DNA of 35,241 nt, from assembly GCA_020696395.1 (NCBI GenBank), contig JAEHCN010000005.1, positions 1-35,241 on the forward strand. The letters run 5' to 3'. The stretch's first letter is position 1. Each line of letters opens with the position of its first letter. The DNA is from Thermoplasmata archaeon. GTDB taxonomy: Archaea; Thermoplasmatota; Thermoplasmata; UBA10834. Shown piece by piece: positions 2 through 35,241 of this stretch. The notes below the pieces were generated by a model. That model saw only the letters and a list, made by a program, of their open reading frames with translations. It did not search any database and was not told the DNA's origin. Position numbers and translations under genes: made by a program.

Positions 2-967
2 GTGTCCGGCGCTCAGCTATGTGCGCTCAACACGGATGCGAAGCATCTGCTGGCCATACACGCGCCGAAGAAGATACTGATCGGTAAGAACGTGACGCGC
101 GGCCTCGGCGCCGGCGCCATTCCGCATGTTGGTGAGGCCGCTGCGAAGGAGAACGAGCGCGACATCCGCGACTTTCTAGAAGGGGCGAACATCGTGTTCA
201 TCACTGCGGGGATGGGCGGCGGCACCGGGACTGGGTCCGCGCACTTCGCCGCTCGACTCTCGAAGGATATGAGGGCTCTGACGATCGGGGTCGTCACATT
301 GCCCTTCAAGGCCGAGGGCGAGATGAGGATGGAGAATGCGATGGACGGCCTCGAGAAGCTGAGGCGGCTGTGCGACACGACGATCGTCATCCCGAACGAC
401 AAGCTGCTCGAACTCGTGCCGAAGCTGCCGGTCGAAGCGGCGTTCAAGGTGGCGGACGAGGTGCTCATGCAGACCATCAGAGGTCTGACGGAGATCATCA
501 CCAAGCCTGGGCTGGTCAATCTGGACTACAGCGACATCATGACCGTGATGAACGAGGGCGGCGTTGCCTTCGTCGGCATGGGTGAGTCCGACGACTCGGA
601 TGCCGAAGAGCGCATCCAAGAGGCCATCGACGAGGCCATGAGCTCCCCACTGCTCGGCGAGATCGACTTGAAGCAGGCCAAGGGTGCGCTGATCAGGGTG
701 GTTGGCGGACCGGACATGACCGTCTCAGAGGCGCAGAAGGCCGCAGAGGTCGTCGGCGAGAAGATAAGCAAGCACGCGCGGATCATTTGGGGATGCAGCG
801 TCGATCCTGACAACGAGGGACAGGTCAGGATATTGCTCATTGTCACGGGGGCGAGGGCCGAACTCCTGATGGGCAAGGACAACTCGCACAGCACCGTCGC
901 CGCAGCCGGAGGGAGTGCCTCGAGGTCATCCGCGTCAGATGACGATGGGATAGACTTCGTTCACTGA
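2..967 (+). CDS. ftsZ: Cell-division GTPase FtsZ (5' end outside window)
   Basis: This is the tubulin-like GTPase that polymerises into the cytokinetic ring at mid-cell. The window opens inside the gene: the first visible residues (SGAQLCALNTDAKHL) match the FtsZ stretch that normally follows the N-terminal glycine-rich loop, so roughly 40-50 residues are missing. The GTP-binding tubulin signature GGGTGTGS is at fragment residues 73-80. It is followed by the conserved region with MRMENAMDGLEKL and the IPNDKLLELV stretch. A low-complexity Ser/Asp linker ends in the short hydrophobic tail GIDFVH, the usual site for partner binding. The gene converges on the zinc-ribbon gene across a strong inverted repeat. 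Identity as FtsZ is secure. Which archaeal paralogue (FtsZ1 or FtsZ2) it is cannot be decided without an alignment. Confidence 0.97.
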   Translation: MSGAQLCALNTDAKHLLAIHAPKKILIGKNVTRGLGAGAIPHVGEAAAKENERDIRDFLEGANIVFITAGMGGGTGTGSAHFAARLSKDMRALTIGVVTLPFKAEGEMRMENAMDGLEKLRRLCDTTIVIPNDKLLELVPKLPVEAAFKVADEVLMQTIRGLTEIITKPGLVNLDYSDIMTVMNEGGVAFVGMGESDDSDAEERIQEAIDEAMSSPLLGEIDLKQAKGALIRVVGGPDMTVSEAQKAAEVVGEKISKHARIIWGCSVDPDNEGQVRILLIVTGARAELLMGKDNSHSTVAAAGGSASRSSASDDDGIDFVH

Positions 968-21911: not shown

Positions 21912-22930
21912 TTGCCCACCTCCTGCTCCTTGAGGGCCTTCGATACCGACACGACGTTTATGTCGACCGGGCATGTGGCGACGCATCTACCGCAGCCGAC
22001 GCATGCGGGCTCCCCGAACTCGCCTATGTACGCCTGGAGCTTGTGCGTGTACCACAGCTTCAGCCGGTCCGCCCTTCGGTCCCTGAAGTTGTGCCCTCCA
22101 GCGACGACCGAGTACTCGCGGAACATGCAGCTGTCCCAGAAGCGGTCCCTCGTGCCGTCGATCGTGCCGAGTTCGACCTCATCGACCACGTTGTAGCAGT
22201 TGCAGGTCGGGCACACCATGGTGCACTGCCCACATGACAGGCACTTCTCGGCTAGCTCGTCCCACACAGGGCTGTTGTAGCCCAGCTCAAATATATCCGG
22301 CATGCCGGTGAAGTCCACCTTCGACGTGAACTGCGAGGACTTCCAGCTCCTGTATTCAGTGTAGTTGATGATGTCGTCCTTGCCGATGTCCCTGTTGAAC
22401 AGCTCTGGCCTCATCTGCACGAGGTCGTGCCCCCTGCTCGAGCCGACCCAAACCAGGTAGAACATCTTCAGGTCCGTGAAGAATAGGTCGAATCCCTCGG
22501 CGATGAACTCCGTGTCCGTCGCGGAGCACATGCACTTCTCGTCGGGTATACAGCTGTGTCCGAGCAGGAGCGTCTTCTCTCTCCTCTCCGCGTAATAGGG
22601 GTCCTTGTACTCCTCGAGGAACATCTTGTCCATCGTCTGAATGCCGTGCGTGTCGCACGGGTGTATGCCGAAGAGTATCCTGTTAGGGACCTCTCCTGTC
22701 CTCTCGACGTATCCTCCGTCGTCGAAGTCGAACATTGTGAACCGTGGCGGGTAGAGGAACTTCTTGGGCGGGATGATCGTCCTCGTCGCCTTCAGGTCCA
22801 TCTGCGAGAGTGCATCGACCTTCTCGAAGGCAACCTTGTCGCCCTTCCTCGTGGGACCCCACAGCTCTCCCCATTCCTTCGCGGATTCGAGGAATGCGGA
22901 CAGGTCCTCCTTCTTCATCTTCAGAATCAT
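21908..22930 (-). CDS. hydB: Hydrogenase beta subunit, 4Fe-4S electron transfer
   Basis: The first gene of the operon encodes a 340-residue subunit of the HydB/anaerobic sulfite reductase A family. Two ferredoxin-type clusters near the C-terminus are seen as CLSCGQCTMVCPTCNC and CVGCGRCVATCPVDI, ready to bind two [4Fe-4S] centres. The N-terminal two thirds contain the family segments FGIHPCDTHGIQTMDKMF and LLLGHSCIPDEKCMC. The start at 22930 (MILKMKKEDLS) is chosen because it begins at the conserved domain; an in-frame extension to 23134 would cross the promoter. Its stop overlaps the gamma-subunit start. Together with the next three genes it makes a complete heterotetramer. Confidence 0.92.
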   Translation of the reverse strand: MILKMKKEDLSAFLESAKEWGELWGPTRKGDKVAFEKVDALSQMDLKATRTIIPPKKFLYPPRFTMFDFDDGGYVERTGEVPNRILFGIHPCDTHGIQTMDKMFLEEYKDPYYAERREKTLLLGHSCIPDEKCMCSATDTEFIAEGFDLFFTDLKMFYLVWVGSSRGHDLVQMRPELFNRDIGKDDIINYTEYRSWKSSQFTSKVDFTGMPDIFELGYNSPVWDELAEKCLSCGQCTMVCPTCNCYNVVDEVELGTIDGTRDRFWDSCMFREYSVVAGGHNFRDRRADRLKLWYTHKLQAYIGEFGEPACVGCGRCVATCPVDINVVSVSKALKEQEVGK

Positions 22931-23040
22931 CACGTTATCTCGTCCTTTCCTTCTAGTCTCACCCGTCGTCACTCTGGGCTCTCGGCAAAACGTCGCCAGA
23001 CCCGCCGTTGAGCCCCGCGAAGAAGAGTATCGAGCGGGGG

Positions 23041-23049
23041 TATAAAAAC
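23041..23049 (-). promoter_or_regulatory. hydB: TATA box of the hydrogenase operon
   Basis: On the minus strand it reads GTTTTTATA. The first gene starts at 22930, so the transcript would have a leader of about 85 bases, longer than most promoters in this window. The same bases read TATAAAAAC on the plus strand, so a plus-strand transcript into the intergenic region is also possible. Confidence 0.55.
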
Positions 23050-23062
23050 ATTCGGAACGCTG

Positions 23063-23075
23063 ACCGAAAATCGGT
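23063..23075. promoter_or_regulatory. Dyad next to the hydrogenase TATA box
   Basis: ACCGA and TCGGT are perfect inverted arms around a three-base AAA spacer. The dyad lies 14 bases upstream of the hydrogenase TATA box, adjoining the position of the TFB recognition element, where an activator or repressor could act. Regulator unknown. Confidence 0.35.
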
Positions 23076-23214
23076 TGGAAAACGTACGAGGTCCTTGATG
23101 CCTGTGCTTCATATCCTGCTTGAAACCGACTCATTTGCGATCTTAACCAGTCAGCCGCTTGATGGCGCAGCGCCGTCCGCGCGAGAGTGCCGGATTCGAG
23201 TGTAGCCCAAGGGC

Positions 23215-23260
23215 CCGTGCGGTGAACCAGGCAGCATGCAGGTGGCTGGTCAACGTACGG
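23215..23260. other. Long imperfect hairpin, possible structured RNA
   Basis: CCGTGC plus GTGAACCAG (with one bulged G at 23221) can pair with CTGGTCAAC plus GTACGG. This gives 13 pairs including one G-U, with two tandem mismatches. The apical part contains the palindrome GCATGC. The element belongs to no gene. Which strand would be transcribed is unclear because TATA-like boxes are present on both sides. Confidence 0.35.
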
Positions 23261-23311
23261 CTCTGTCTAGATGCTCCCCCTTTACGTCCGACACGTGGTC
23301 GCTCAGAGGAC

Positions 23312-23318
23312 TTTTATC
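23312..23318 (+). promoter_or_regulatory. TATA box of the Kelch-like gene, inside an inverted repeat
   Basis: TTTTATC lies within GAGGA-CTTTTA-TCCTC (23306-23321), so the box is framed by 5-bp inverted arms. Transcription would begin near 23340, leaving a leader of about 45-65 bases depending on the start codon used. The arms could bind a repressor; this is inferred. Confidence 0.4.
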
Positions 23319-23402
23319 CTCCCGTGTTGATAGCTTAGACAATTCGGCTGGTTCAGTGTTTACCGGTCGTTAAGCTGAAATGGTGTGATTGAAGTGGACG
23401 AA

Positions 23403-25028
23403 ATGATGGCGAGGAAGAGAGTTGTCAGCGGGCTTGCTCTGGGTTTTGCGGTCTCACTGGCATTGTGTGCCCTGATGTGTGTTTCTCCCCCGGCGAGTGG
23501 TGCTCTCTCCGCAGACTGGCAGGTCGAGGATGCGATGAGTGGCAACCGGACGCAGGCAGTGGTCCTGCAGGACGACGATGGGATCATCTACGTCATAGGT
23601 GGAGTCAGAAGCACGTCTGGCGGCTACGGACCGGAGGTAGGCGATGTCGAGTCGTTCAACCCCAGCACGGGGGAATGGACCGATTTGGCTCAGATGCCGC
23701 GTGGCGTCAGAGGGGCTGCGGGCGCCCTGGGAGGTGATGGAAGGATCTATGTTTTCGGCGGGGTGAACTCTAGTGTCATCGGCTCCAACATGACCCAGAT
23801 CTACGACCCTGCGGCAGATGTCTGGACCTCTGGGGCCGCTGTTCCACTGGGCGTTTGGGAGGCCAAGGCCGCCAGTTTCGGACTTGACAAGTTGATCGTT
23901 GTTGGCGGGGAGGGCGCATACACCAACACCCAGATATACGATATCGCCGAAGACAGCTGGTCTGCCGGAGGCAGTCTTCCCGGCGGCGTATTTGCTGGAG
24001 TCCTTCTGGAGATAGATTACTACTGCTTATACATCGGCGGTTCGGACCCTGGATACACAGCCTTGGATACCGTTTATCGGTATGACAAATATTACGACAT
24101 CTGGAACGCGGGTGACCCGATGCCCGTTCCGACGGCGGCCCACGCTGCCGTCATCGGCCCCGACGGCTTGATATACGTTGTTGGTGGCGCCGACTCCGCA
24201 ATGAACGTCGGGTTGGGGTACAACACGTCATACTGTCTCAATCCCTCAACGGGTGATTGGACCCAACTGGACGATATTCCGGTCGGCGTGAGATACCTGG
24301 GTGCGGCAACCTCGGCGGACGGAATGATTTACGCCTTCGGAGGGAATGATGACACAGACGCGCACCCCCAGGTTCTCTCGTTACATGTGATGGAGTTGAC
24401 GTCATCACTTTCGGAGTCTGAGGCACGTGCCGGCGACAGTATCACAGTCACATTGACCGTCGAGTTCGCCAACAGGGGAACGGTGACGGGTTCGGACTAC
24501 TCCGCGTATTTCGTCACTCCGGAGGGGATTCCGACCAATCCAGTGTATGCTTGGATATCCGCACCCTACCCGGCCATTGCGATTGAGCTGGATGTGCCTG
24601 GGACCGCCGAGCCAGGGACATACAGCGTTGTTGTGCATTGGTACACAAGTACGACCTCAGGCGGCGTGGAACTGCCGGTTCAGGAGCTGTCGTTGACCGT
24701 GGTGGACGCCCCCACACTGGAGGAACAGCTGTCCGAAGTCCTAGCGCAGTTGGATGCCATGGGTTCCGACATAAATGCGACGGAGGCAGCCCTCCTGGAG
24801 GAGGTTGGAGCGCTTGAGAGCGAGTTGAACGCTCTTCAGTCTCAACTGGACGCCCTTGAGTCGGCAATGGCGGAGGCTGACGACGACATACAGACCTCCT
24901 TGGACTCTAAAGCGGAGAATTCGATACTCTACGCTGTCATCGGGCTGTTGGTCGTCGTGATCGTCCTGCTCATCGTCATGATGATGATGAGCCGGAAGCG
25001 CCTCGAATCACCACCGCCATCGGCGTGA
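23403..25028 (+). CDS. Secreted Kelch-like repeat protein with C-terminal anchor
   Basis: This 541-residue predicted surface protein begins with a signal peptide (MMARKRVVSG, then a hydrophobic run to about residue 35 ending PPASGA). At least six Kelch-like beta-propeller blades follow to about residue 330, each with a YVIGG/YVFGG-type strand and a Trp-containing strand (for example IIYVIGGVRS, RIYVFGGVNS, LIYVVGGADS, MIYAFGGNDD). Next comes an Ig-like/CARDB-like domain (about 335-435, with SITVTLTVEFANRG), a coiled coil rich in Leu/Glu/Ala (about 440-505) and a transmembrane helix before a basic tail (MSRKRLESPP). In-frame starts at 23385, 23394 and 23403 cannot be separated. Binding partner unknown; the propeller most likely sits outside the cell. 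Confidence 0.8.
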   Translation: MMARKRVVSGLALGFAVSLALCALMCVSPPASGALSADWQVEDAMSGNRTQAVVLQDDDGIIYVIGGVRSTSGGYGPEVGDVESFNPSTGEWTDLAQMPRGVRGAAGALGGDGRIYVFGGVNSSVIGSNMTQIYDPAADVWTSGAAVPLGVWEAKAASFGLDKLIVVGGEGAYTNTQIYDIAEDSWSAGGSLPGGVFAGVLLEIDYYCLYIGGSDPGYTALDTVYRYDKYYDIWNAGDPMPVPTAAHAAVIGPDGLIYVVGGADSAMNVGLGYNTSYCLNPSTGDWTQLDDIPVGVRYLGAATSADGMIYAFGGNDDTDAHPQVLSLHVMELTSSLSESEARAGDSITVTLTVEFANRGTVTGSDYSAYFVTPEGIPTNPVYAWISAPYPAIAIELDVPGTAEPGTYSVVVHWYTSTTSGGVELPVQELSLTVVDAPTLEEQLSEVLAQLDAMGSDINATEAALLEEVGALESELNALQSQLDALESAMAEADDDIQTSLDSKAENSILYAVIGLLVVVIVLLIVMMMMSRKRLESPPPSA

Positions 25029-25148
25029 GATGAGCGCTGAACACGACTTAGGTCGAAACCCTTTTCAAAACATCTTTCTTGTTTCCCTGAATGTTTCGTG
25101 CGTATTTTGGTTCAAATGGACAGTGCCGCCGCTAGGACTGCCAAGAAT

Positions 25149-25156
25149 AAAAAAAA
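25149..25156 (-). terminator. T-run downstream of 16S rRNA
   Basis: Eight consecutive T residues on the minus strand, about 80 bases after the 16S 3' end, match the oligo-T signal at which archaeal RNA polymerase terminates. It is the first such tract after the gene, so the primary 16S transcript probably ends here without a linked 23S gene. Confidence 0.6.
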
Positions 25157-25208
25157 GACGGTCGTTCGATGACGGATATGGTGGTCGAAACGCTCACCAA
25201 CGGTTTGG

Positions 25209-25229
25209 CGGAGGGGTAGTGCCCCTCCG
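25209..25229 (-). other. Hairpin in the 16S 3' trailer
   Basis: CGGAGGGG and CCCCTCCG form a perfect 8-bp stem around a five-base loop, 9 bases beyond the mature 16S 3' end. It may protect the 3' end, guide processing, or help termination together with the T-run at 25149-25156. Confidence 0.5.
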
Positions 25230-25238
25230 TTGTTGCGT

Positions 25239-26689
<1,451 letters not shown>

Positions 26690-26707
<18 letters not shown>

Positions 26708-26776
26708 TGATCTGTCGTCTCATTTCATTACTACTAGCGGTCGCTCGATCGTACACTTAACTAACTGGCAGGATCA
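26690..26776. repeat. 16S 5'-end sequence repeated in its own leader
   Basis: The 10-mer GGCAGGATCA (plus strand) occurs at 26690-26699, inside the 16S 5' end, and again at 26767-26776 in the leader. The leader copy is also the 3' arm of an inverted pair with TGATCCCTGC at 26794-26803, which therefore could pair with either copy. Confidence 0.6.
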
Positions 26777-27012
26777 CCAATACTCACCGACTATGATCCC
26801 TGCATGTCGCGGCGTTCGGAAACGCCGCTGCATTTTCGTTTGCACGAAACCTCTATCTGTCATCGAACGTCAGAATCAAGAGTTCACGACAGAGCCGGAG
26901 ATCTTGATCCTCCATCATGTCTGCGACAGATGGATTAAGGGTTGATCATCAGATCAGGCGAAAAACGCCTCCCTCCCAACCACCGCCGCTGTCGCAGCCA
27001 ATTGGTTTGGGT
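26708..27012 (-). other. 16S rRNA leader region
   Basis: This is the probable transcribed leader between the predicted start near 27012 and the mature 16S 5' end; no protein gene is supported. It contains several foldable elements: a small GGCG/CGCC hairpin near 26956-26968, the strong hairpin at 26809-26828, and the inverted pair at 26767-26803 that includes the 16S 5'-end copy. The long bulge-helix-bulge processing stem expected for archaeal pre-16S could not be traced with certainty by eye. Confidence 0.5.
26809..26828 (-). other. Strong hairpin in the 16S leader
   Basis: GCGGCGTT and AACGCCGC form a perfect 8-bp stem around a TCCG loop on the minus strand. With a small bulge the outer bases GCA and TGC can extend it. 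It lies about 100 bases upstream of mature 16S and is likely a leader folding or processing element. Confidence 0.5.
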
Positions 27013-27033
27013 AGTCCCGCTAAGCCCGATGCC

Positions 27034-27043
27034 GTATTTATGC
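27034..27043 (-). promoter_or_regulatory. rrs: Probable 16S rRNA promoter
   Basis: On the minus strand CGAAACGCATAAATACGG combines a purine-rich TFB recognition element with a good TATA box. Transcription would start near 27012, giving a leader of about 300 bases. A weaker AT-rich tract near 27118-27130 could be a second start. Confidence 0.55.
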
Positions 27044-27073
27044 GTTTCGAACTGTGTCGTATCCGAAGCATAG

Positions 27074-27251
27074 GCGCTTCAGATGTGGGAATACGAGCTA
27101 TACGTTGAACTCCGAGATATTTGATAATTTCTATTGGGAGCTTGCCAAACAGCAACTGCGATGTCCCTGCCGCTCAACTGGAACGTAGCGCGATCGCGGC
27201 GACAAACCTTTAAGAAAGTGCCTAGCATTATGCGCTTCAGATGCGGGGATA
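27074..27251. repeat. Direct repeat including the tRNA 5' end
   Basis: GCGCTTCAGATGYGGGRATA occurs at 27074-27093 and 27232-27251 with 18 of 20 bases identical. The second copy contains the first nine bases of tRNA-Ser; the first copy is not followed by a tRNA. Origin unknown. Confidence 0.6.
27207..27214 (+). promoter_or_regulatory. TATA box of tRNA-Ser
   Basis: CCTTTAAG, preceded by ACAAA, lies about 32 bases upstream of the first tRNA base. That would start transcription a few bases before the mature 5' end, as usual for archaeal tRNA genes. Confidence 0.5.
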
Positions 27252-27357
27252 GCCCAGCCCGGTAAGGCGCTGGATTGCTATCTCCTTCTCTGAGATTCGG
27301 AAGGGGCAAACATCCAGTGCTCGAGAGAGCTCGGGGGTTCAAATCCCCCTCCCCGCG
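27243..27357 (+). tRNA. tRNA-Ser(GCU) with a 31-base intron
   Basis: The gene folds into a complete type II tRNA. The acceptor stem GCGGGGA pairs fully with TCCCCGC, with discriminator G at 27357 and no encoded CCA. The D-stem is GCC/GGC. The anticodon stem is CTGGA/TCCAG with anticodon GCT at 27277-27279. The long variable arm GCTC/GAGC is typical of tRNA-Ser, and the T-stem is GGGGG/CCCCC with loop TTCAAAT. Bases 27281-27311 are an intron at the canonical position after base 37. TTGC (27275-27278) can pair with GCAA (27306-27309) as the central helix of a bulge-helix-bulge, and CCTTC pairs with GAAGG inside the intron. Splicing would yield an 84-base tRNA decoding AGC/AGU. Confidence 0.9.
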
Positions 27358-27469
27358 CTTCCGAGAAGTTCCTTCGGCCCGCCACAGGTGTTTTGGTCAA
27401 CGGAATGGCGCGGAATGGCAGAGCGCGGACCAACCACCGAAGGCGTTCGTCACGGGTCATTTGGTTATT

Positions 27470-27477
27470 TTTATATA
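27470..27477 (+). promoter_or_regulatory. Strong TATA box of the PKD-transporter operon
   Basis: TTTATATA, preceded by GGTTATTT, is one of the best TATA boxes in the window. Transcription would begin near 27500, leaving a leader of about 75 bases before the TTG start at 27577. The 90-odd bases between the tRNA and this box contain GCGC-rich inverted repeats (TTGGTC near 27393 with GACCAA near 27428) but no gene. Confidence 0.6.
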
Positions 27478-27576
27478 GGGTCAAGGCATTGGCGTTCGCC
27501 GTGCCTTCGCTAGGCATGCCTGGGTACCATATCCAGTGCGCTATCGAGAACGCTTCCTTGAGGGGGGAAGAGAACA

Positions 27577-29631
27577 TTGAACATCGGTCGCGGTCTTAAC
27601 GAAGGACATTCACCTCCCAAACGTCCGCCCTCGTCTTCTTCCGATAAACGCGTTCTGGTCGTGTTTTCCCTTTTGCTGCTTCTCTTATCGTCCTTTGCAG
27701 GCGTCTTGTCAATCCCACAGGAAGCCGGCGAACTCGCGGCGCGGGACGACCCCATTCCCGCGAGATCGAATGCTATAAGCGGCGTGGAGTTCAAGGTCGT
27801 ACCCTCATGGGTCCATGTCGGGGAGTCTGTGACGTTCTATGCGAACGCGTCCACCGATGTGGGGTCGATGCTGAATTTCACGATCAAGTACGACAGCGAG
27901 CTTGCGGACGGCTCTCCGAACCCGAACAGCCCCGTGTCTGTCAACGTGACGGGAAGCTCCGGAAAGGTCGTGACGACATATACATACGATCACGAGGGCA
28001 ATCTGACGAATCCGCTCGTGCCCGATCCCTTCTTCAAAGTCACTCTTACAGTATTCGACGGCTACACCACGAACACTCAGACGAGGAACGTCTACGTCGT
28101 CGGAAACGTCGCGCCGGAGTTCAAGTTGTCGCTGGGCTCCCTCTATGACAACCCGGACATCGGCGTGGAGCAAGTCTACTCCATCAAACTCATCGACAAA
28201 GACGGAGATTCGTTGAACATCACCTGGGACTTCGGCGACGGGACCCCTATCGTCTACAACGAGACCGGTCCTGCCGGAACCGAGATCTTTGTGAACCAGA
28301 CCCATGTATGGGACCCGGTCGAGCCCGGGGCCGAGTTCTACGATGTGCTGTATTATCTGAATGTGACGGTCGACGACGGTCAAGGAAACATCATAGAGTC
28401 CACCTCCGAGGTCCTGTTCAGCATCGGCATGAACTTCGGCCCGGAAGGCACGTTGAAAGCGTCGGCAACATGGGTGGACCCGATGACGGTGGTCTGGTTC
28501 TATGCGAACGCGACCGACCGCGAGGGTGAGTCCATCACGTGGACTTTCATATTCGAGCTGGAGGGGGAGGACTATCTCACTGAAGTGTACAGGACCAATG
28601 CCACGGACCCGTACGAGGTAGTTTGGATGAACGTCTCGCAAGTGTTCTCGGTCGAGGGTAACTACACCGTGACCGTCTACGCAACTGATGCACTGCTCCC
28701 CGAACTGCAGGTGGGTTTCCATAATGCAACTCTGGGTTCTATCAGTGTGAGATCCGAGATCAACGTGGTGCCGTATGTCATGAGCACGATGACCGTGACG
28801 CCTTCTCCTCTCAAGGTGAATGCTACGAACCCTACCGTCATCGCCACCGTCTACACGGAGATAGCCGATTGGGATGGCGATGTGCTCACTGCGACTTGGG
28901 ATTTCGGTGACGGATCGGAGCAGGCGGTGAACGTCACCGCTGGTGGGAAGCCGATCTACGGCGTATCACAGCAGCACGAGTACGTTTCTGCAGGTTACTT
29001 CAATGTCACGCTAATGGTGACGGACGGCTGGTTCAATCACACGGTGACCAGGTGGAAGGTGGTCACCGTCACCTCGGATAACAAGGCACCCACCGTCGTC
29101 GGTATCGACGTCCTGCACACGAACGGCAGTTACAGCCTGCCAGGGAGCGTCGTCGGCTTCGTGATAAAGCTCAACGACTCCGAGAGGGACCCGATCGAGA
29201 TCACATGGGATTTCGGAGACAACACGACCAAGCTCCGAATGAACCTAACGGAGTTCGACGAGGATGGCGTGGTGACGTGCGAGGTCAACCACACCTACGT
29301 CTTGAGGGGGGAGTACAGGGCGCGCATCACTTTCACAGACCACATGTTCGACACGAAATACCACAACAGCTCCGTGAACGTGACCGTCCGAATCAGGTTC
29401 TATGAGCTCTCCCAGGCAGAGCCCTGGGATGTCTGGGATTCCGTTGGCCTCGGTCTGCTGTTCTGCCTCTTCGGCTCTTGTATAGCGTGGGTCGTGTACG
29501 CGCACATAAGACGTAGGAGAATCGACGAGTGGGGGATGACCTGGGACGAGTACAGGATTCGTAAGAAAGAGGTCAAGTTCGGCGATATGGGCGGCGAGGA
29601 CAAACGTGGTCCTGGGGGTGGAGACGCATGA
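27577..29631 (+). CDS. Membrane-anchored PKD-repeat surface protein
   Basis: This 684-residue extracellular protein has an N-terminal hydrophobic signal/anchor (residues about 25-44, VLVVFSLLLLLLSSFAGV) and a C-terminal transmembrane helix (about 618-640) followed by a charged cytoplasmic tail. About five PKD-type beta-sandwich repeats lie between, seen as TWDFGDGTP near 215, TWTFIFELEGE near 315, TWDFGDGSE near 440 and TWDFGDNTT near 540, with a diverged first copy near 85. Many N-x-S/T sequons suggest glycosylation. The start is TTG at 27577 with GAGGGGGG 9 bases upstream; no ATG occurs before the signal peptide. Its stop overlaps the DppB start as ATGA, so it is translationally coupled to the peptide transporter. 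No enzymatic motif is seen. Confidence 0.85.
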   Translation: MNIGRGLNEGHSPPKRPPSSSSDKRVLVVFSLLLLLLSSFAGVLSIPQEAGELAARDDPIPARSNAISGVEFKVVPSWVHVGESVTFYANASTDVGSMLNFTIKYDSELADGSPNPNSPVSVNVTGSSGKVVTTYTYDHEGNLTNPLVPDPFFKVTLTVFDGYTTNTQTRNVYVVGNVAPEFKLSLGSLYDNPDIGVEQVYSIKLIDKDGDSLNITWDFGDGTPIVYNETGPAGTEIFVNQTHVWDPVEPGAEFYDVLYYLNVTVDDGQGNIIESTSEVLFSIGMNFGPEGTLKASATWVDPMTVVWFYANATDREGESITWTFIFELEGEDYLTEVYRTNATDPYEVVWMNVSQVFSVEGNYTVTVYATDALLPELQVGFHNATLGSISVRSEINVVPYVMSTMTVTPSPLKVNATNPTVIATVYTEIADWDGDVLTATWDFGDGSEQAVNVTAGGKPIYGVSQQHEYVSAGYFNVTLMVTDGWFNHTVTRWKVVTVTSDNKAPTVVGIDVLHTNGSYSLPGSVVGFVIKLNDSERDPIEITWDFGDNTTKLRMNLTEFDEDGVVTCEVNHTYVLRGEYRARITFTDHMFDTKYHNSSVNVTVRIRFYELSQAEPWDVWDSVGLGLLFCLFGSCIAWVVYAHIRRRRIDEWGMTWDEYRIRKKEVKFGDMGGEDKRGPGGGDA

Positions 29632-30650
29632 GCTCTCCCCAGAAGCGGTCGTTGAGGAAGATGCTGGTGAAGCGCTCCATAAACGTCGTGGTAACGATAT
29701 TCGGCATAATGACTCTGAACTTCGCGTTGATACACCTGATGCCGGGTGACCCGATTCTCAATATGGTGCCCCGGGACCCTAAGCTGGATCCGGCGGTGAA
29801 GGAGTCGCTCATAGATAAATTCAACCTCGACGCGGGTCTTCTTGAGAGATATGTCACATACATGTGGAAGACGATTACGCTGGACTGGGGCACTTCGTAT
29901 TCGACGATGCGCCCCGTCTGGGATGTCATATCGTACGATATGCGCTGGACCATATTGCTGATTGGAACCGCCACCTTCTTCACGTTGATAATCGGCATGG
30001 CCATCGGAGCCATGGCAGCCTATCGACGGGGTGGCGCGTTCGATCTTGTGTCAACCGGTACGGGTCTGTTCTTCTACGGCATGCCGATCTTCTGGTTCGC
30101 CATGCTTCTGCAGGAGGCCTTCAATTCTCAGCTCTTCGGCATGAACTGGTGGCCGCAGCTACCTGGTGGGAGCTATTACGATATCGTCGAGTACGGTCCG
30201 GTGTTCGAATGGAAACTCGGGCTCGTTCTCAGCGTTCTCGAGCATCTCATACTGCCATCGCTCACGTTAGCGATTGCGTCGTTCGCCGGGGTCGCGTTGG
30301 TCATGCGGGGTTCCCTTGTCGACGTGATGACCGACGACTACATCCTGACAGCGAAGGCGAAGGGTCTCACGGACTACCAGATCCTCCGGCGTCACGCGCT
30401 GCCGAACGGAATGCCACCGATGGTCGCGCTGATAGCTATGAGCGTCGCGTTCATCATCGGCGGTGCTTATCAGATCGAGTACGTTTTCAACTATCCCGGG
30501 ATAGGATACAGGACGATAAATGCAATCTGGGACCTGGACTTTCCGATTCTCCAGTTTGTCGTAGTCGTGGGCGGCGTGGCCGTGGTCATTGCCAATCTAT
30601 TAGCCGATATCGTGCTGATCTACATCGACCCGAGGATCAACCTGGTGTGA
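29628..30650 (+). CDS. dppB: Peptide ABC transporter permease, DppB type
   Basis: This is a membrane permease of the dipeptide/oligopeptide/nickel importer family, 340 residues, with about six transmembrane helices. The N-terminus IFGIMTLNFALIHLMPGDP is the standard DppB opening. The cytoplasmic EAA loop is DDYILTAKAKGLTDYQILRRHALPN, which docks on the ATPase subunits, followed by VFNYPGIGY and a C-terminal YIDPRINLV. The ATG overlaps the preceding PKD gene stop (ATGA) with GGGGGTGGAG upstream. The substrate is probably peptides, judged from the operon and the family; nickel or sugars are not excluded. The ATP-binding subunits are not in the window and should lie downstream or elsewhere. Confidence 0.93.
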   Translation: MSSPQKRSLRKMLVKRSINVVVTIFGIMTLNFALIHLMPGDPILNMVPRDPKLDPAVKESLIDKFNLDAGLLERYVTYMWKTITLDWGTSYSTMRPVWDVISYDMRWTILLIGTATFFTLIIGMAIGAMAAYRRGGAFDLVSTGTGLFFYGMPIFWFAMLLQEAFNSQLFGMNWWPQLPGGSYYDIVEYGPVFEWKLGLVLSVLEHLILPSLTLAIASFAGVALVMRGSLVDVMTDDYILTAKAKGLTDYQILRRHALPNGMPPMVALIAMSVAFIIGGAYQIEYVFNYPGIGYRTINAIWDLDFPILQFVVVVGGVAVVIANLLADIVLIYIDPRINLV

Positions 30651-30662
30651 GGGAGTGAGCAG

Positions 30663-31601
30663 ATGACGCAACCAGACAACGGACAAAACAAGAGGGCTTC
30701 GGAGATACGGTCGGAAGTCCGCCGCGAGAAGCTTCGGTTGCTGATCTCAAGGTCGAAGCGCGTTACTAGAGATGTTCTGAAGAACCCCATGGGGTTGATC
30801 GGTACTGCCATCTTGATATTCTTCATGTTTATTGCGGTGTTCGGGACATACCTCGCTCCCTACAAGGTCGATGCGACCAAACCCGGACTGTTCGATTCGT
30901 ATCTGCCCTCGTCAAGCGAGCATTGGATGGGCACCGATGTCTTCGGCCACGACATATTCAGCAAGCTTCTCTACGGTGCTAGGACTTCGATAGTCGTCGG
31001 CACGTTCGCAGCTGTGATCGCCTCTGTAGTTGGAGCTACTGTGGGGTTGTTCTCTGGATATGCCGGGGGCTGGAAGGATGAAGTGCTGATGAGGATCAAC
31101 GACGTGATGCTCTCCATCCCGTGGCTCGTTCTCATGATACTCATTGCGGGGCTGATTGGGACGATCAGCCTTCTGATCATCATCCTCATAATCGGCCTCA
31201 CCGGCTGGTCTGCCACCGCCCGTCTTGTGCGTGCGCAGGTCCTATCACTCAGAGAACGTCAGTACATCGAGCGGGCGAAGGCGATAGGCGCGGGCGACTT
31301 ACACATCATCAAGACGCACATCCTGCCGAATTCGTTCCCTCTCGTGTTCGCCAACACGATACTCACGGTGGCGATATCCATCCTATCCGAGGCCACGCTG
31401 AGCTTCCTTCACATGCGGCCCTACGGTTCCGTTACTTGGGGTACGATGCTCTCGTACGCATACGAATGTAGCGCCTTCCAGCTCGGCCTGCACTATTGGA
31501 TAGTGATGCCAGGCCTTTGCATCGTATTCCTCGTCCTTGGATTCACACTGCTGGGATATGCTCTTGACGAGGTACTGAACCCGAGGCTGAGGAAGAGGTA
31601 G
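30663..31601 (+). CDS. dppC: Peptide ABC transporter permease, DppC type
   Basis: This is the second permease of the importer, 312 residues. It has a basic cytoplasmic N-terminus, then NPMGLIGTAILIFFMFIAVFG, the family signature SSEHWMGTDVFGHDIFSKLLYGARTS (seen in parts), and the EAA loop ERQYIERAKAIGAGDLHIIKTHILPN. It ends with ALDEVLNPRLRKR, typical of DppC. The start is 12 bases after the DppB stop with GAGGGAGTGA upstream, so the two permeases are co-transcribed and should form the heterodimeric channel. LHMRPYGSVTWGTMLSYA replaces the more usual GVQPPTPSWG stretch, a mild divergence common in archaeal relatives. Confidence 0.93.
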   Translation: MTQPDNGQNKRASEIRSEVRREKLRLLISRSKRVTRDVLKNPMGLIGTAILIFFMFIAVFGTYLAPYKVDATKPGLFDSYLPSSSEHWMGTDVFGHDIFSKLLYGARTSIVVGTFAAVIASVVGATVGLFSGYAGGWKDEVLMRINDVMLSIPWLVLMILIAGLIGTISLLIIILIIGLTGWSATARLVRAQVLSLRERQYIERAKAIGAGDLHIIKTHILPNSFPLVFANTILTVAISILSEATLSFLHMRPYGSVTWGTMLSYAYECSAFQLGLHYWIVMPGLCIVFLVLGFTLLGYALDEVLNPRLRKR

Positions 31602-31604
31602 GAT

Positions 31605-31769
31605 ATGTACGACGGAATTCCGGCTGGCTCGCGCGAAAGTGCTCTGTCCGGAGCCTTCTCCGAGACGAGGGAGTCCACCAATGTACAGGTTAGTCGCCTC
31701 GGGAATAGAAAGAGGTTTATAGCATTCATGGGTTACGAATCCTGTTCTTCTGCGGGGGCGTGGAGGTAA
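31605..31769 (+). CDS. Possible 54-residue small protein (doubtful)
   Basis: An open frame starts at the ATG 3 bases after the DppC stop, with AGGTAGGA immediately upstream, and ends at TAA. The predicted protein is hydrophilic with no known motif, signal or membrane segment. A TATA-like TTTATAG lies inside it. It could be a translated small protein or only a by-product of the DppC end. Conservation in related genomes would decide. Confidence 0.2.
   Translation: MYDGIPAGSRESALSGAFSETRESTNVQVSRLGNRKRFIAFMGYESCSSAGAWR
31716..31722 (+). promoter_or_regulatory. Possible TATA box upstream of the binding-protein gene
   Basis: TTTATAG, preceded by AAAGAGG, would start transcription near 31745 and give the binding-protein gene its own promoter with a leader of about 185 bases. 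The 327-base gap after dppC also contains a CCCTC/GAGGG hairpin around 31842-31855. Binding proteins often need more copies than permeases, which a separate promoter would allow. Confidence 0.35.
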
Positions 31770-31928
31770 CGGCGGGAATACTGCTGGCGTCGGTGGAACG
31801 AGTGATGTGTTGTTTCAGCGGTAGCGCCGCCCCGCACTTCCCTCCGGAGAGGGATTGGATGCGACAGAATCGTGACCTGTGAAATGTACAGGAAGATCCA
31901 GGAATACTGTATTCGGGGGTTTGGAATA

Positions 31929-34900
31929 ATGGAACACGCAAAGATGGTAATGACGAGGAGAACTGCTTTTGCAGCGCTATTCTTCGCAGCGCTGATGATC
32001 GGGGTGCCTTCGTTCTTCATGGGGGATTCGGCCCTGGAGGTGGCTTCCAGCGCTGAGGCCGGCGATGAAGTGACTAGAAATTTCGTTATGGGCATAGGGG
32101 CGCTTACTGTCTCTACACTGAATCCGAACACCTATACCATGGCTTCGGAAGGCTACATCATATTCCCAGCTTACAGCTTCTTGCTGCAATATGACGAGAA
32201 TACGCAAGTGATCGGCGACCTCGCATTGGATTGGGAGGTCTCCCCGGACGGTCTTGACTGGTACTTCAGACTCGTCGACAATGCATATTTCATAGATCCG
32301 AGGGATCCGACGAACAAGGACCATCCCGTAACAGCAGAGGATGTCGCATGGAGCTTCCTTACCCTTCAGGAAAACACGGAAAGCAGGTTGCACTTCTACT
32401 TCCCAAACGAGCTCACAGACGCTAAGATCCCGCTCATAGAGACCATTGCCTATCCGACCGATTATGACCTGTACATCAACCTTACGACTCCGTTCGCTTC
32501 GGTGTATGATTCCTGGACCGGAGCTCCCATCTTCCCGAAGTACTACTGGGAGGGCGAGGATTTCATCAATTTCGAGAACGACCCAGTAATCGGATCTGGC
32601 CCGTACTACGTCAAGTACATCGAGGAGGCGGCCGCTGTGCTTGCCAGGAATGATATGTGGTATCACACTGAAAACTACGGTTGGCAGATACACTTCGACG
32701 AGGTGACCATCCTTGAGGAGGTGAACGACGACCTCGCCATGGACATGCTCGTTCTCGGGGGCGTCGAGGATGGCCTCGACTGTCTAGTCAGGATACCTCC
32801 GGCGAAGTACCTGAACATTCTTCCGACGAAGCCGAATACGGTCGGATTCTCCACGAGCGCTGGTTTCGTGTACGAGTTCAATTTGAATCAGATGACCGAC
32901 GAGCTGCGCGCTGAACTCGGTGGGTCGATGACGGGAGGCAAGAACAACCAGTTACTGCTGGACGAGACCGTCAAGACCGCATTAACGATGTGCATCGACA
33001 AGGAGGCGTTCGTTGAGGAGGTCTGTTTCGGACTCGGATCCGTTGCCCATTCACTGGTGCCGGAGAGCAGCCCGTGGCTATACGAGATTCCTAACCCGAT
33101 AGAATCCAATACGGCTGCGGCAAGAGACCTGTTGAATTCCGAGGGATGGATATACAACAGCGCCAAACAGGTGGACACCGAAGCCACCCCGCTCTACAGG
33201 CTGGTTGACGGTGCGCTTGTGGACGAGCTGAAGTTCGATTTCATCACCCTGGATACCCAGACTGAGTGGCAGGTTGCTGCTCTGGAAATCGTAAATTGGA
33301 CCGCAGAGGCCGGCGTCGAGCTGGACCTCGATATCAAATCCGTCAGCTACATGAATTCGGCATGGTATGGCGCCGATTACGACATCTGGCTCTGGGACTG
33401 GATCTTCGGGGTCCTTCAGGAGGCCTCCGGTGTCCTGGAAGTTATGACGACCATGTCCATAGGGCAGAGCAGCGATGTCTACTGGTCGAATGCGACATTC
33501 GATGCGCTCTACAACGAGTCGCTCATCGAGATGGACCCCGTCGCAAGAGGAGAGTTGTACAACGAGATGCAGCAGATGGCGTATGACAACATGGGCTGTC
33601 AGCCGGTGGCCTACTCCAACGACAACTACGGTGTGAGCACGGTCGTATGGAACCCGTACAGCCTTGGAGACTGGAACAGCACGTACATGCTATTGCCAGA
33701 CGTGTCCTTCCAGTGGCTGGGGATGAGGGCCTACCCGAACGAGAACGAGGCTCCTGAGTTCGTCCTGGAATTCGAAGATAAGACAGACGAGCGGGTCGAC
33801 GTGCCAATATCCTTCCTCGCCACCGCTCTTGACGACGACGACACGACGCCCTTGTCGTTCAGATGGTTCTGGGGAGACGGCGATAAGACCGATTGGCGCC
33901 CCGGCGGCACCGGTTCTGTTTCAGACGCGCCCTCCCACACGTACACTGAAGACGGCATCTACACGGTATGGGTCGCCGTCAGGGAGGCCGGCGATTCGAT
34001 GGGATTCGATGACAACTTCACGACCGTATCGAGCTTCAAGGTGACCGTGAAGGACATGTCCAACGACCCGCCTGAGGACGTCGATTTCACTTGGGCGCCG
34101 CTGGACCCCGACGCAGGTGATGTCGTGACCTTCACCGGGTCCGCCACTGATCCTGAGGGCGACGAGCTGTACTACTCGTGGGACTTCGGAGGAGGCCATG
34201 TCCTGAGCGGACAGGTGGTGGATTTCCAGTTCGGTGCCGAGGACTACTACACAGTCACGCTGTACGTTGACGACAACCGCCTGGGTGCTGGAGAGAGACC
34301 CGCATACGAGTCTAAGTCGATGTATGTCGCACGCAACAACGCGCCTACACTCGTCGTTCCGACGTACAAGAACGTCGAACGCAGCGTGGCGACGACGTTC
34401 GACATCACAGCGCAGGACGACGAGGACGACATCGTGGTGACGTGGTTATGGGGTGACGGCGAAACGACCGTCACTGCTGGCCCGAGCGCGACTCACACGT
34501 ACTCCAATCTGGGCTACTACACTCTGACCGTGTGGGTCGACGACCTCACCGGTTTGGATGGCCACAACGTCTCGGGCAGCTGCGATGTGTTTGTCTACAA
34601 CCCAAGTCAGAACGTTCCGGCCGGAATCGAAGGGTTTACCGTCAACATCCCTGACCCGTACACGGGCCAGGAGGTAGAGTTCACGGCGACGGCGATCGAC
34701 GCCGATGGTGACCCGCTCGAGTTCACAATACAGTATGGCGACGGGTTATCCGAGGTGGTATCGTTCGACGCAAGCGCCCCGAACACGGTCAGGGAGCATG
34801 TGTTCACGAAGGAGTACGCGAGTGGTGGATCCTTCACGGCGTATCTGTATGTCGATGACGGCACTTCGACTACCACATCGGATGGTATCGGGATGACCGT

Positions 34901-35241
34901 CACAGCCAACTTCGAGCCGGACCTCGACCCGCTGGTGGACGTCTATGGCGACACTGGCGAGTCGATTGACTTCGAGGCGGTGGCGACCGATCTGGACGGA
35001 GACGATCTGACATACTACTGGGAATGGGACGACGGCGAGACCACAACGGTCTTGAACGATGGCCTCGCATCGCACGTCTACGAGGATTCTGGAGACTATG
35101 ACTACGGGGTCTGGGTCGATGACGGAAAGGGCCATAACGTGACCGATTCGGCGACGGTGTCCGTCAACTGGGTGCCTGTGTTGACCCCCCTGACGCCGTT
35201 CCCTACCGATACGGGTGTACCTTGTACCTTCACCGCGATAG
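31929..35241 (+). CDS. Peptide-binding protein fused to PKD-type repeats (3' end outside window)
   Basis: The reading frame is open from 31929 to the window edge (1104 codons so far). It begins with a signal peptide (RRTAFAALFFAALMIGVPSFF); no lipobox Cys is seen. Residues about 50-600 form a family 5 solute-binding domain of the Dpp/Opp class: an early segment with TLNPNTYTMASEGYIIFPAY, then TAEDVAWSFLTLQ, IGSGPYYVKYIEE, and ALTMCIDKEAFVEEVCFGLG. From about 607 onward at least five PKD-type repeats follow (WFWGDGDKTD, SWDFGGGHV, WLWGDGETT, IQYGDGLSE, WEWDDGETT), and a further one begins at the edge. An in-frame ATG at 31884 is a weaker start. It captures substrate for the DppBC permeases; the repeats probably span or bind the cell surface, with an anchor expected beyond the window. 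Confidence 0.88.
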   Translation, partial: MEHAKMVMTRRTAFAALFFAALMIGVPSFFMGDSALEVASSAEAGDEVTRNFVMGIGALTVSTLNPNTYTMASEGYIIFPAYSFLLQYDENTQVIGDLALDWEVSPDGLDWYFRLVDNAYFIDPRDPTNKDHPVTAEDVAWSFLTLQENTESRLHFYFPNELTDAKIPLIETIAYPTDYDLYINLTTPFASVYDSWTGAPIFPKYYWEGEDFINFENDPVIGSGPYYVKYIEEAAAVLARNDMWYHTENYGWQIHFDEVTILEEVNDDLAMDMLVLGGVEDGLDCLVRIPPAKYLNILPTKPNTVGFSTSAGFVYEFNLNQMTDELRAELGGSMTGGKNNQLLLDETVKTALTMCIDKEAFVEEVCFGLGSVAHSLVPESSPWLYEIPNPIESNTAAARDLLNSEGWIYNSAKQVDTEATPLYRLVDGALVDELKFDFITLDTQTEWQVAALEIVNWTAEAGVELDLDIKSVSYMNSAWYGADYDIWLWDWIFGVLQEASGVLEVMTTMSIGQSSDVYWSNATFDALYNESLIEMDPVARGELYNEMQQMAYDNMGCQPVAYSNDNYGVSTVVWNPYSLGDWNSTYMLLPDVSFQWLGMRAYPNENEAPEFVLEFEDKTDERVDVPISFLATALDDDDTTPLSFRWFWGDGDKTDWRPGGTGSVSDAPSHTYTEDGIYTVWVAVREAGDSMGFDDNFTTVSSFKVTVKDMSNDPPEDVDFTWAPLDPDAGDVVTFTGSATDPEGDELYYSWDFGGGHVLSGQVVDFQFGAEDYYTVTLYVDDNRLGAGERPAYESKSMYVARNNAPTLVVPTYKNVERSVATTFDITAQDDEDDIVVTWLWGDGETTVTAGPSATHTYSNLGYYTLTVWVDDLTGLDGHNVSGSCDVFVYNPSQNVPAGIEGFTVNIPDPYTGQEVEFTATAIDADGDPLEFTIQYGDGLSEVVSFDASAPNTVREHVFTKEYASGGSFTAYLYVDDGTSTTTSDGIGMTVTANFEPDLDPLVDVYGDTGESIDFEAVATDLDGDDLTYYWEWDDGETTTVLNDGLASHVYEDSGDYDYGVWVDDGKGHNVTDSATVSVNWVPVLTPLTPFPTDTGVPCTFTAI

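Follow-up and report, generated by a model that had tools for sequence, protein, structure and literature searches.

PKDP, a membrane-anchored protein with five PKD domains, is best explained as a dedicated accessory subunit of an Opp/Dpp-type ABC importer that would be sited by the permeases DppB and DppC; the probability of this reading is slightly better than even, about 0.55. Its gene lies in a window of 35,241 nucleotides, which is the entire contig C35 of a 1.71-Mb archaeal genome in 130 contigs (Table 1). Literature searches, covering open-access papers only, returned no description of a PKD subunit in an Opp/Dpp importer, and this conserved importer variant with a dedicated PKD accessory protein is apparently undescribed.

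Table 1. Features of the PKDP cassette in the window and domains of PKDP. Positions are window nucleotides unless given as residues of PKDP.
Feature	Position	Strand	Basis or remark
TATA-like TTTTTATATAGGG	27465..27480	+	about 100 nt 5' of the PKDP start; sequence read directly
PKDP, accessory protein	27577..29631	+	Pfam and AlphaFold2; TTG start at 27577, TGA stop at 29631
PKDP N-terminal hydrophobic helix	residues 22-44		
PKDP D1	residues 67-175		
PKDP D2	residues 181-283		
PKDP D3	residues 290-393		
PKDP D4	residues about 399-500		
PKDP D5, membrane-proximal	residues 506-606		
PKDP C-terminal membrane helix	residues 619-651		begins at W617-x-x-W620-D621
PKDP cytoplasmic helix	residues 656-669		
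ATGA overlap, PKDP stop and DppB start	29628..29631	+	
DppB-type permease, 340 aa	29628..30650	+	BPD_transp_1
DppC-type permease, 312 aa, without insertion	30663..31601	+	OppC_N and BPD_transp_1
Gap between DppC and binding protein genes, about 270-330 nt	31602..31871	+	TATA-like TTTATAG near 31716; sequence read directly
Family-5 solute-binding protein with PKD tail	31872..35241	+	SBP_bac_5; gene cut by contig end
Sequence shared with C84:1-137, another contig of the genome	35105..35241	+	137 nt, 136/137 identical, same reading frame

The 684-aa PKDP matches the Pfam families PKD (2.8e-23, 82 bits) and PKD_4 (60 bits), both above the Pfam cut-off, and its gene is coupled to DppB by the ATGA overlap recognized in the preliminary description. 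DppC follows DppB after 12 nt. The two permeases match BPD_transp_1 at 8.6e-40 and 5.1e-29, and the C subunit also matches OppC_N (9.9e-9). The binding protein, which starts at GTG 31872 or, more likely, at ATG 31929, matches SBP_bac_5 over residues 113-516 (3.2e-40) and carries five PKD_4 stretches within the window, in agreement with the minimum of five PKD domains first described. By family (SBP_bac_5, two BPD_transp_1 permeases, OppC_N) the system is an Opp/Dpp-type importer. The original name, peptide importer, holds at this family level and does not extend to the substrate, as no substrate-specific NCBIfam equivalog reaches its cut-off. PKDP and the permeases would share one mRNA, and TTTTTATATAGGG is a possible promoter of PKDP-DppB-DppC. 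The binding protein gene may have its own promoter, for which TTTATAG is a candidate.

Upstream of PKDP the window holds a tRNA gene of 115 nt (27243-27357, + strand), found by Rfam and missed by ARAGORN, whose length suggests that it probably contains an intron. A full-length archaeal 16S rRNA gene (25239-26707, - strand) lies a little further upstream, with no second rRNA match within positions 22000-35241. A Kelch-repeat surface protein with a hydrophobic segment at its C-terminus is encoded at 23385-25028.

The sequence beyond position 35241 was recovered through contig C84. The remainder of the binding protein is encoded by C84:2-2185 and adds seven PKD domains, a membrane helix and a short cytoplasmic tail. 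The joined product, of 1,805 aa (1078 + 727) if read from the GTG and 1,786 aa from the ATG, has 12 PKD domains in all ahead of its C-terminal membrane helix; the join is confirmed by uninterrupted orthologs of 1,782-1,785 aa that also have 12 PKD domains. Of the two things expected beyond the contig end, a C-terminal anchor and ATPase genes, the anchor is present and no ATPase gene is found, either in the cassette or downstream on C84. The host genome has five oligo_HPY ATPase genes (on C5, C72 and C124) for eight binding proteins, and the complete chromosome of one relative has four for 15 binding proteins, none of them near its PKDP cassettes. This scarcity makes it likely that ATPases are shared among importers, and DppD/DppF encoded elsewhere and common to other importers would energize the cassette. 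A DppD-DppF pair without adjoining permease genes on C72 of the host genome (G000; L059:9816-11890) provides candidate shared ATPases.

PKDP homologs were sought in several hundred Thermoplasmatota genomes (overlapping sets of 60, 300 and 390). Most members of one GTDB family have them, and distant homologs occur in one genus of a second family (f23). The named carriers are uncultured Thermoplasmata/Euryarchaeota MAGs, e.g., CP070732 (bin41), CP070736 (bin4), RBG_13_57_23 and JAOTTD. Nineteen loci of the first family, all from uncultured Thermoplasmata, have the order PKDP-DppB-DppC-(binding protein), with PKDP-DppB gaps of -7 to about +24 nt that are mostly 4-nt overlaps. One of them is a second full cassette in the same genome, on C6, whose PKDP is 38% identical over 613 aa; with this cassette and 17 more in relatives, the arrangement is not a chance feature of one contig. 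The distant f23 PKDP precedes DppB-DppC-DppD-DppF at a gap of about 115 nt, uncoupled, and the binding protein gene there is divergent. In the two families together, 21 of the 25 PKDP copies whose 3' end is covered are adjacent to DppB, so that homologs are not found mostly away from Dpp genes, the outcome that the preliminary description had named as contrary to its proposal. The other four copies (L075, L079, L080 and L082, all first-family) do not lie beside Dpp genes; D2-D5, or as much of it as is covered, is common to them and the linked copies, but they have one PKD domain more and end in a PEF-CTERM-like anchor of the x-IPE type. In four close relatives of the C6 cassette (L017:6006-6008, L064-L066) the DppB frame has no ATG, GTG or TTG at the expected start, and DppB probably starts at a CTG that overlaps the stop codon of PKDP (CTGA).

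The DppB genes of the 19 first-family cassettes form one clade (support 99/97) that adjoins second-family cassettes, both those with PKDP and plain ones, in which the binding protein directly precedes DppB. PKDP, DppB and binding-protein distances correlate (r 0.86-0.89), which together with the single DppB clade points to co-inheritance through several within-genome duplications. DppC is not used as evidence: its distances correlate with those of PKDP and DppB at only 0.23 in the larger set, although they reach 0.87 against the binding protein in the complete set, and the poor value is suspected to stem from insertions or a single aberrant sequence. Several DppC proteins (L070, L077, L083, L020) have extra N-terminal PKD domains ahead of OppC_N, those of the C6 type have a hydrophobic-looking insertion of 200-400 aa, and the DppC on C5 has an insertion with a PQQ_2 match. 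A conserved operon order may also stem from co-regulation and need not imply a complex. Cassettes without PKDP have similar permeases, and PKDP is thus not needed for import in general.

What distinguishes the permease-linked copies lies at the membrane. A W-x-x-W-D motif where the C-terminal membrane helix begins is present in 21/21 DppB-adjacent PKDPs and in 0/4 unlinked paralogs, which also lack the cytoplasmic tail found in the DppB-adjacent copies. Motif presence and DppB adjacency therefore coincide in 25/25 copies; as these copies are related and not phylogenetically independent, the match is a strong pattern and not a probability. Since the juxtamembrane motif tracks DppB adjacency and the PKD ectodomain does not, we infer that PKDP is held at DppB/DppC by its motif and membrane helix.

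For PKDP, AlphaFold2 (18 sequences, mean pLDDT 80.6) predicts five beta-sandwich domains between N- and C-terminal helices, and the low pTM (0.37) means that the mutual placement of the domains is not fixed by the model. A fold search against the PDB returned generic multi-Ig proteins only (mastigonemes, complement), with TM-scores of 0.25 or less. PKD domains are common on the surface proteins of the host genome, which has 58 PKD matches. PKDPs contain 13-38 N-x-S/T sequons each, where shuffles predict 5-10, and the sequon count is near chance in binding proteins from the same cassettes. An STT3 oligosaccharyltransferase domain is encoded in the genome (G000:C25:9529-10692, L147), and this and the sequon enrichment make heavy N-glycosylation of PKDP plausible. 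The STT3 match sits within a 2,197-codon open frame, which is long for an archaeal oligosaccharyltransferase.

These features would also suit a stalk glycoprotein that belongs to the cell surface in general, or associates with the S-layer, and has nothing but its operon in common with the importer. Sequon enrichment (24 vs. 6 expected) is similar in other PKD surface proteins of the genome, on C16 and C3, an STT3 domain is encoded, and stand-alone PKDP paralogs exist. A stalk of this kind is nevertheless unlikely, given that 21/25 copies are DppB-adjacent and were duplicated together with the cassette, that the motif and cytoplasmic tail occur in the DppB-adjacent copies alone, and that in sister cassettes the counterpart of D5 is the anchor domain of the binding protein. 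Least probable among the readings considered, and in our view a poor candidate, is a second receptor that captures substrate such as peptides, proteins or polysaccharide near the importer. PKD domains in some collagenases and chitinases, which are secreted hydrolases, help bind substrate, and polar and aromatic positions are conserved in D2-D4 of PKDP; however, its conservation is centered on the PKD core motifs and the juxtamembrane region, and searches of Pfam and NCBIfam identified no enzymatic or known ligand-binding domain in it.

The membrane-proximal domain suggests where PKDP came from. A D5 HMM matches the last domain of f23 binding proteins at 54-87 bits, and the reverse HMM, built from that last domain, matches D5 of every first-family PKDP, nearly always above the other PKD domains. 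In plain second-family cassettes the nearest relative of D5 in both directions is thus the final PKD domain of the binding protein, which adjoins its membrane helix. In the membrane-anchored binding proteins having at least two PKD domains, which are related sequences and not independent cases, the last PKD domain is the best D5 match in 14/16 from cassettes without PKDP (28-87 bits, one at 16) and in 0/7 with PKDP (0-6.6 bits). Each cassette thus usually contains a single module of D5 and membrane helix, encoded immediately ahead of DppB as part of the binding protein or of PKDP. PKDP is accordingly probably the anchor end of a former binding protein whose anchor and binding domain came to be encoded by two genes; the opposite direction, fusion of a PKDP-like anchor to a binding domain, is possible.

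If a separate subunit supplied the anchor on the permease side, the binding protein could lengthen its own PKD tail or lose its membrane anchor. The tail has 4-12 PKD domains in complete binding proteins of PKDP cassettes and 0-6 where PKDP is missing. Six binding proteins of PKDP-type cassettes lack a C-terminal membrane helix (L070:9540-13349, L071, L077, L083 and two in L179, which are PKDP-type by gene order only, as the contig ends before PKDP); they end in a domain of about 175 aa (GGGWVQVG...ASDI...GDGLWLYV) with no Pfam match. Anchorless binding proteins are not confined to PKDP cassettes, an association that was rejected because they also occur without PKDP in L158, L160, L162, L165, L168 and L174. 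A binding protein in a PKDP cassette of G006/CP070732 that seemed to be tail-less was discounted, as the record contains a run of N there.

The preliminary description proposed that PKDP is a fixed extracellular docking post, with PKD-PKD contacts holding the tail of the binding protein near the permeases, and reasoned that a binding protein usually stops at the end of its binding domain. The latter is untrue in this lineage, where most binding proteins are anchored in the membrane at the C-terminus and many have PKD domains. Docking would agree with the presence of at least four PKD domains in the tail of every PKDP cassette with a complete binding protein, and a docking partner would be most useful to the six anchorless binding proteins. 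Yet tails with six PKD domains exist in cassettes without PKDP (C102, C107, L087, L145, L146, L157, L173), and a PKD-PKD dock is therefore not required. PKDP stays at 4-5 domains although tails range from 4 to 12, tails with a membrane anchor need no docking, and the sequons, abundant in PKDP and not in the tail, would shield its faces. Since it is the W-x-x-W-D motif, and not the PKD ectodomain, that follows DppB adjacency, docking as stated is not supported, and we regard it as doubtful.

The accessory-subunit reading places PKDP beside DppB/DppC through its C-terminal membrane helix and W-x-x-W-D motif, with the five-PKD stalk, predicted to be heavily N-glycosylated, projecting next to the substrate entrance. 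There it may serve to mark, stabilize or fence a site for the returning binding protein; holding the binding protein, stabilizing the permease and spacing the surface layer are all conceivable roles of the stalk.

The MalF P2 domain and other extracellular permease insertions also offer the binding protein a possible contact platform next to the channel, but they are part of the permease itself, whereas PKDP is a separate subunit. Like other Opp/Dpp (PepT) importers, the system has a family-5 binding protein and DppB/DppC-type permeases; oligo_HPY ATPases are encoded elsewhere in its genome. E. coli DppABCDF has five subunits and no PKD protein (PMC12136057), whereas the cassette has a sixth, coupled PKD subunit, an anchored binding protein with 12 PKD domains, and no ATPase genes. 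Archaeal secreted proteins can be embedded by a C-terminal helix (PMC2910488). The binding proteins described here resemble archaeal C-terminally anchored ones in having such a helix in a monoderm cell, with the difference that the anchor end, D5 and helix, also exists as a separate protein. The Bas system of Sulfolobus likewise provides extra archaeal components for the surface placing of binding proteins (PMC2910488), but it is a type IV pilus-like assembly system, and PKDP is unlike any described Bas part. A possible functional analogy is offered by basigin-MCT and GLMP-MFSD1 (PMC2409183, PMC11252000), in which a single-pass glycoprotein is the ancillary subunit of a transporter and the basigin ectodomain is Ig-type; there is no homology, and their transporters are MFS-type eukaryotic carriers.

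A PKD subunit of the importer would bear on how monoderm archaea hold binding proteins near permeases across the surface layer. Descriptions of type I ABC importers give them a fixed set of components, to which a conserved, coupled extracellular subunit across an archaeal family would add one. The swap of D5 between binding protein and PKDP offers a testable evolutionary route.
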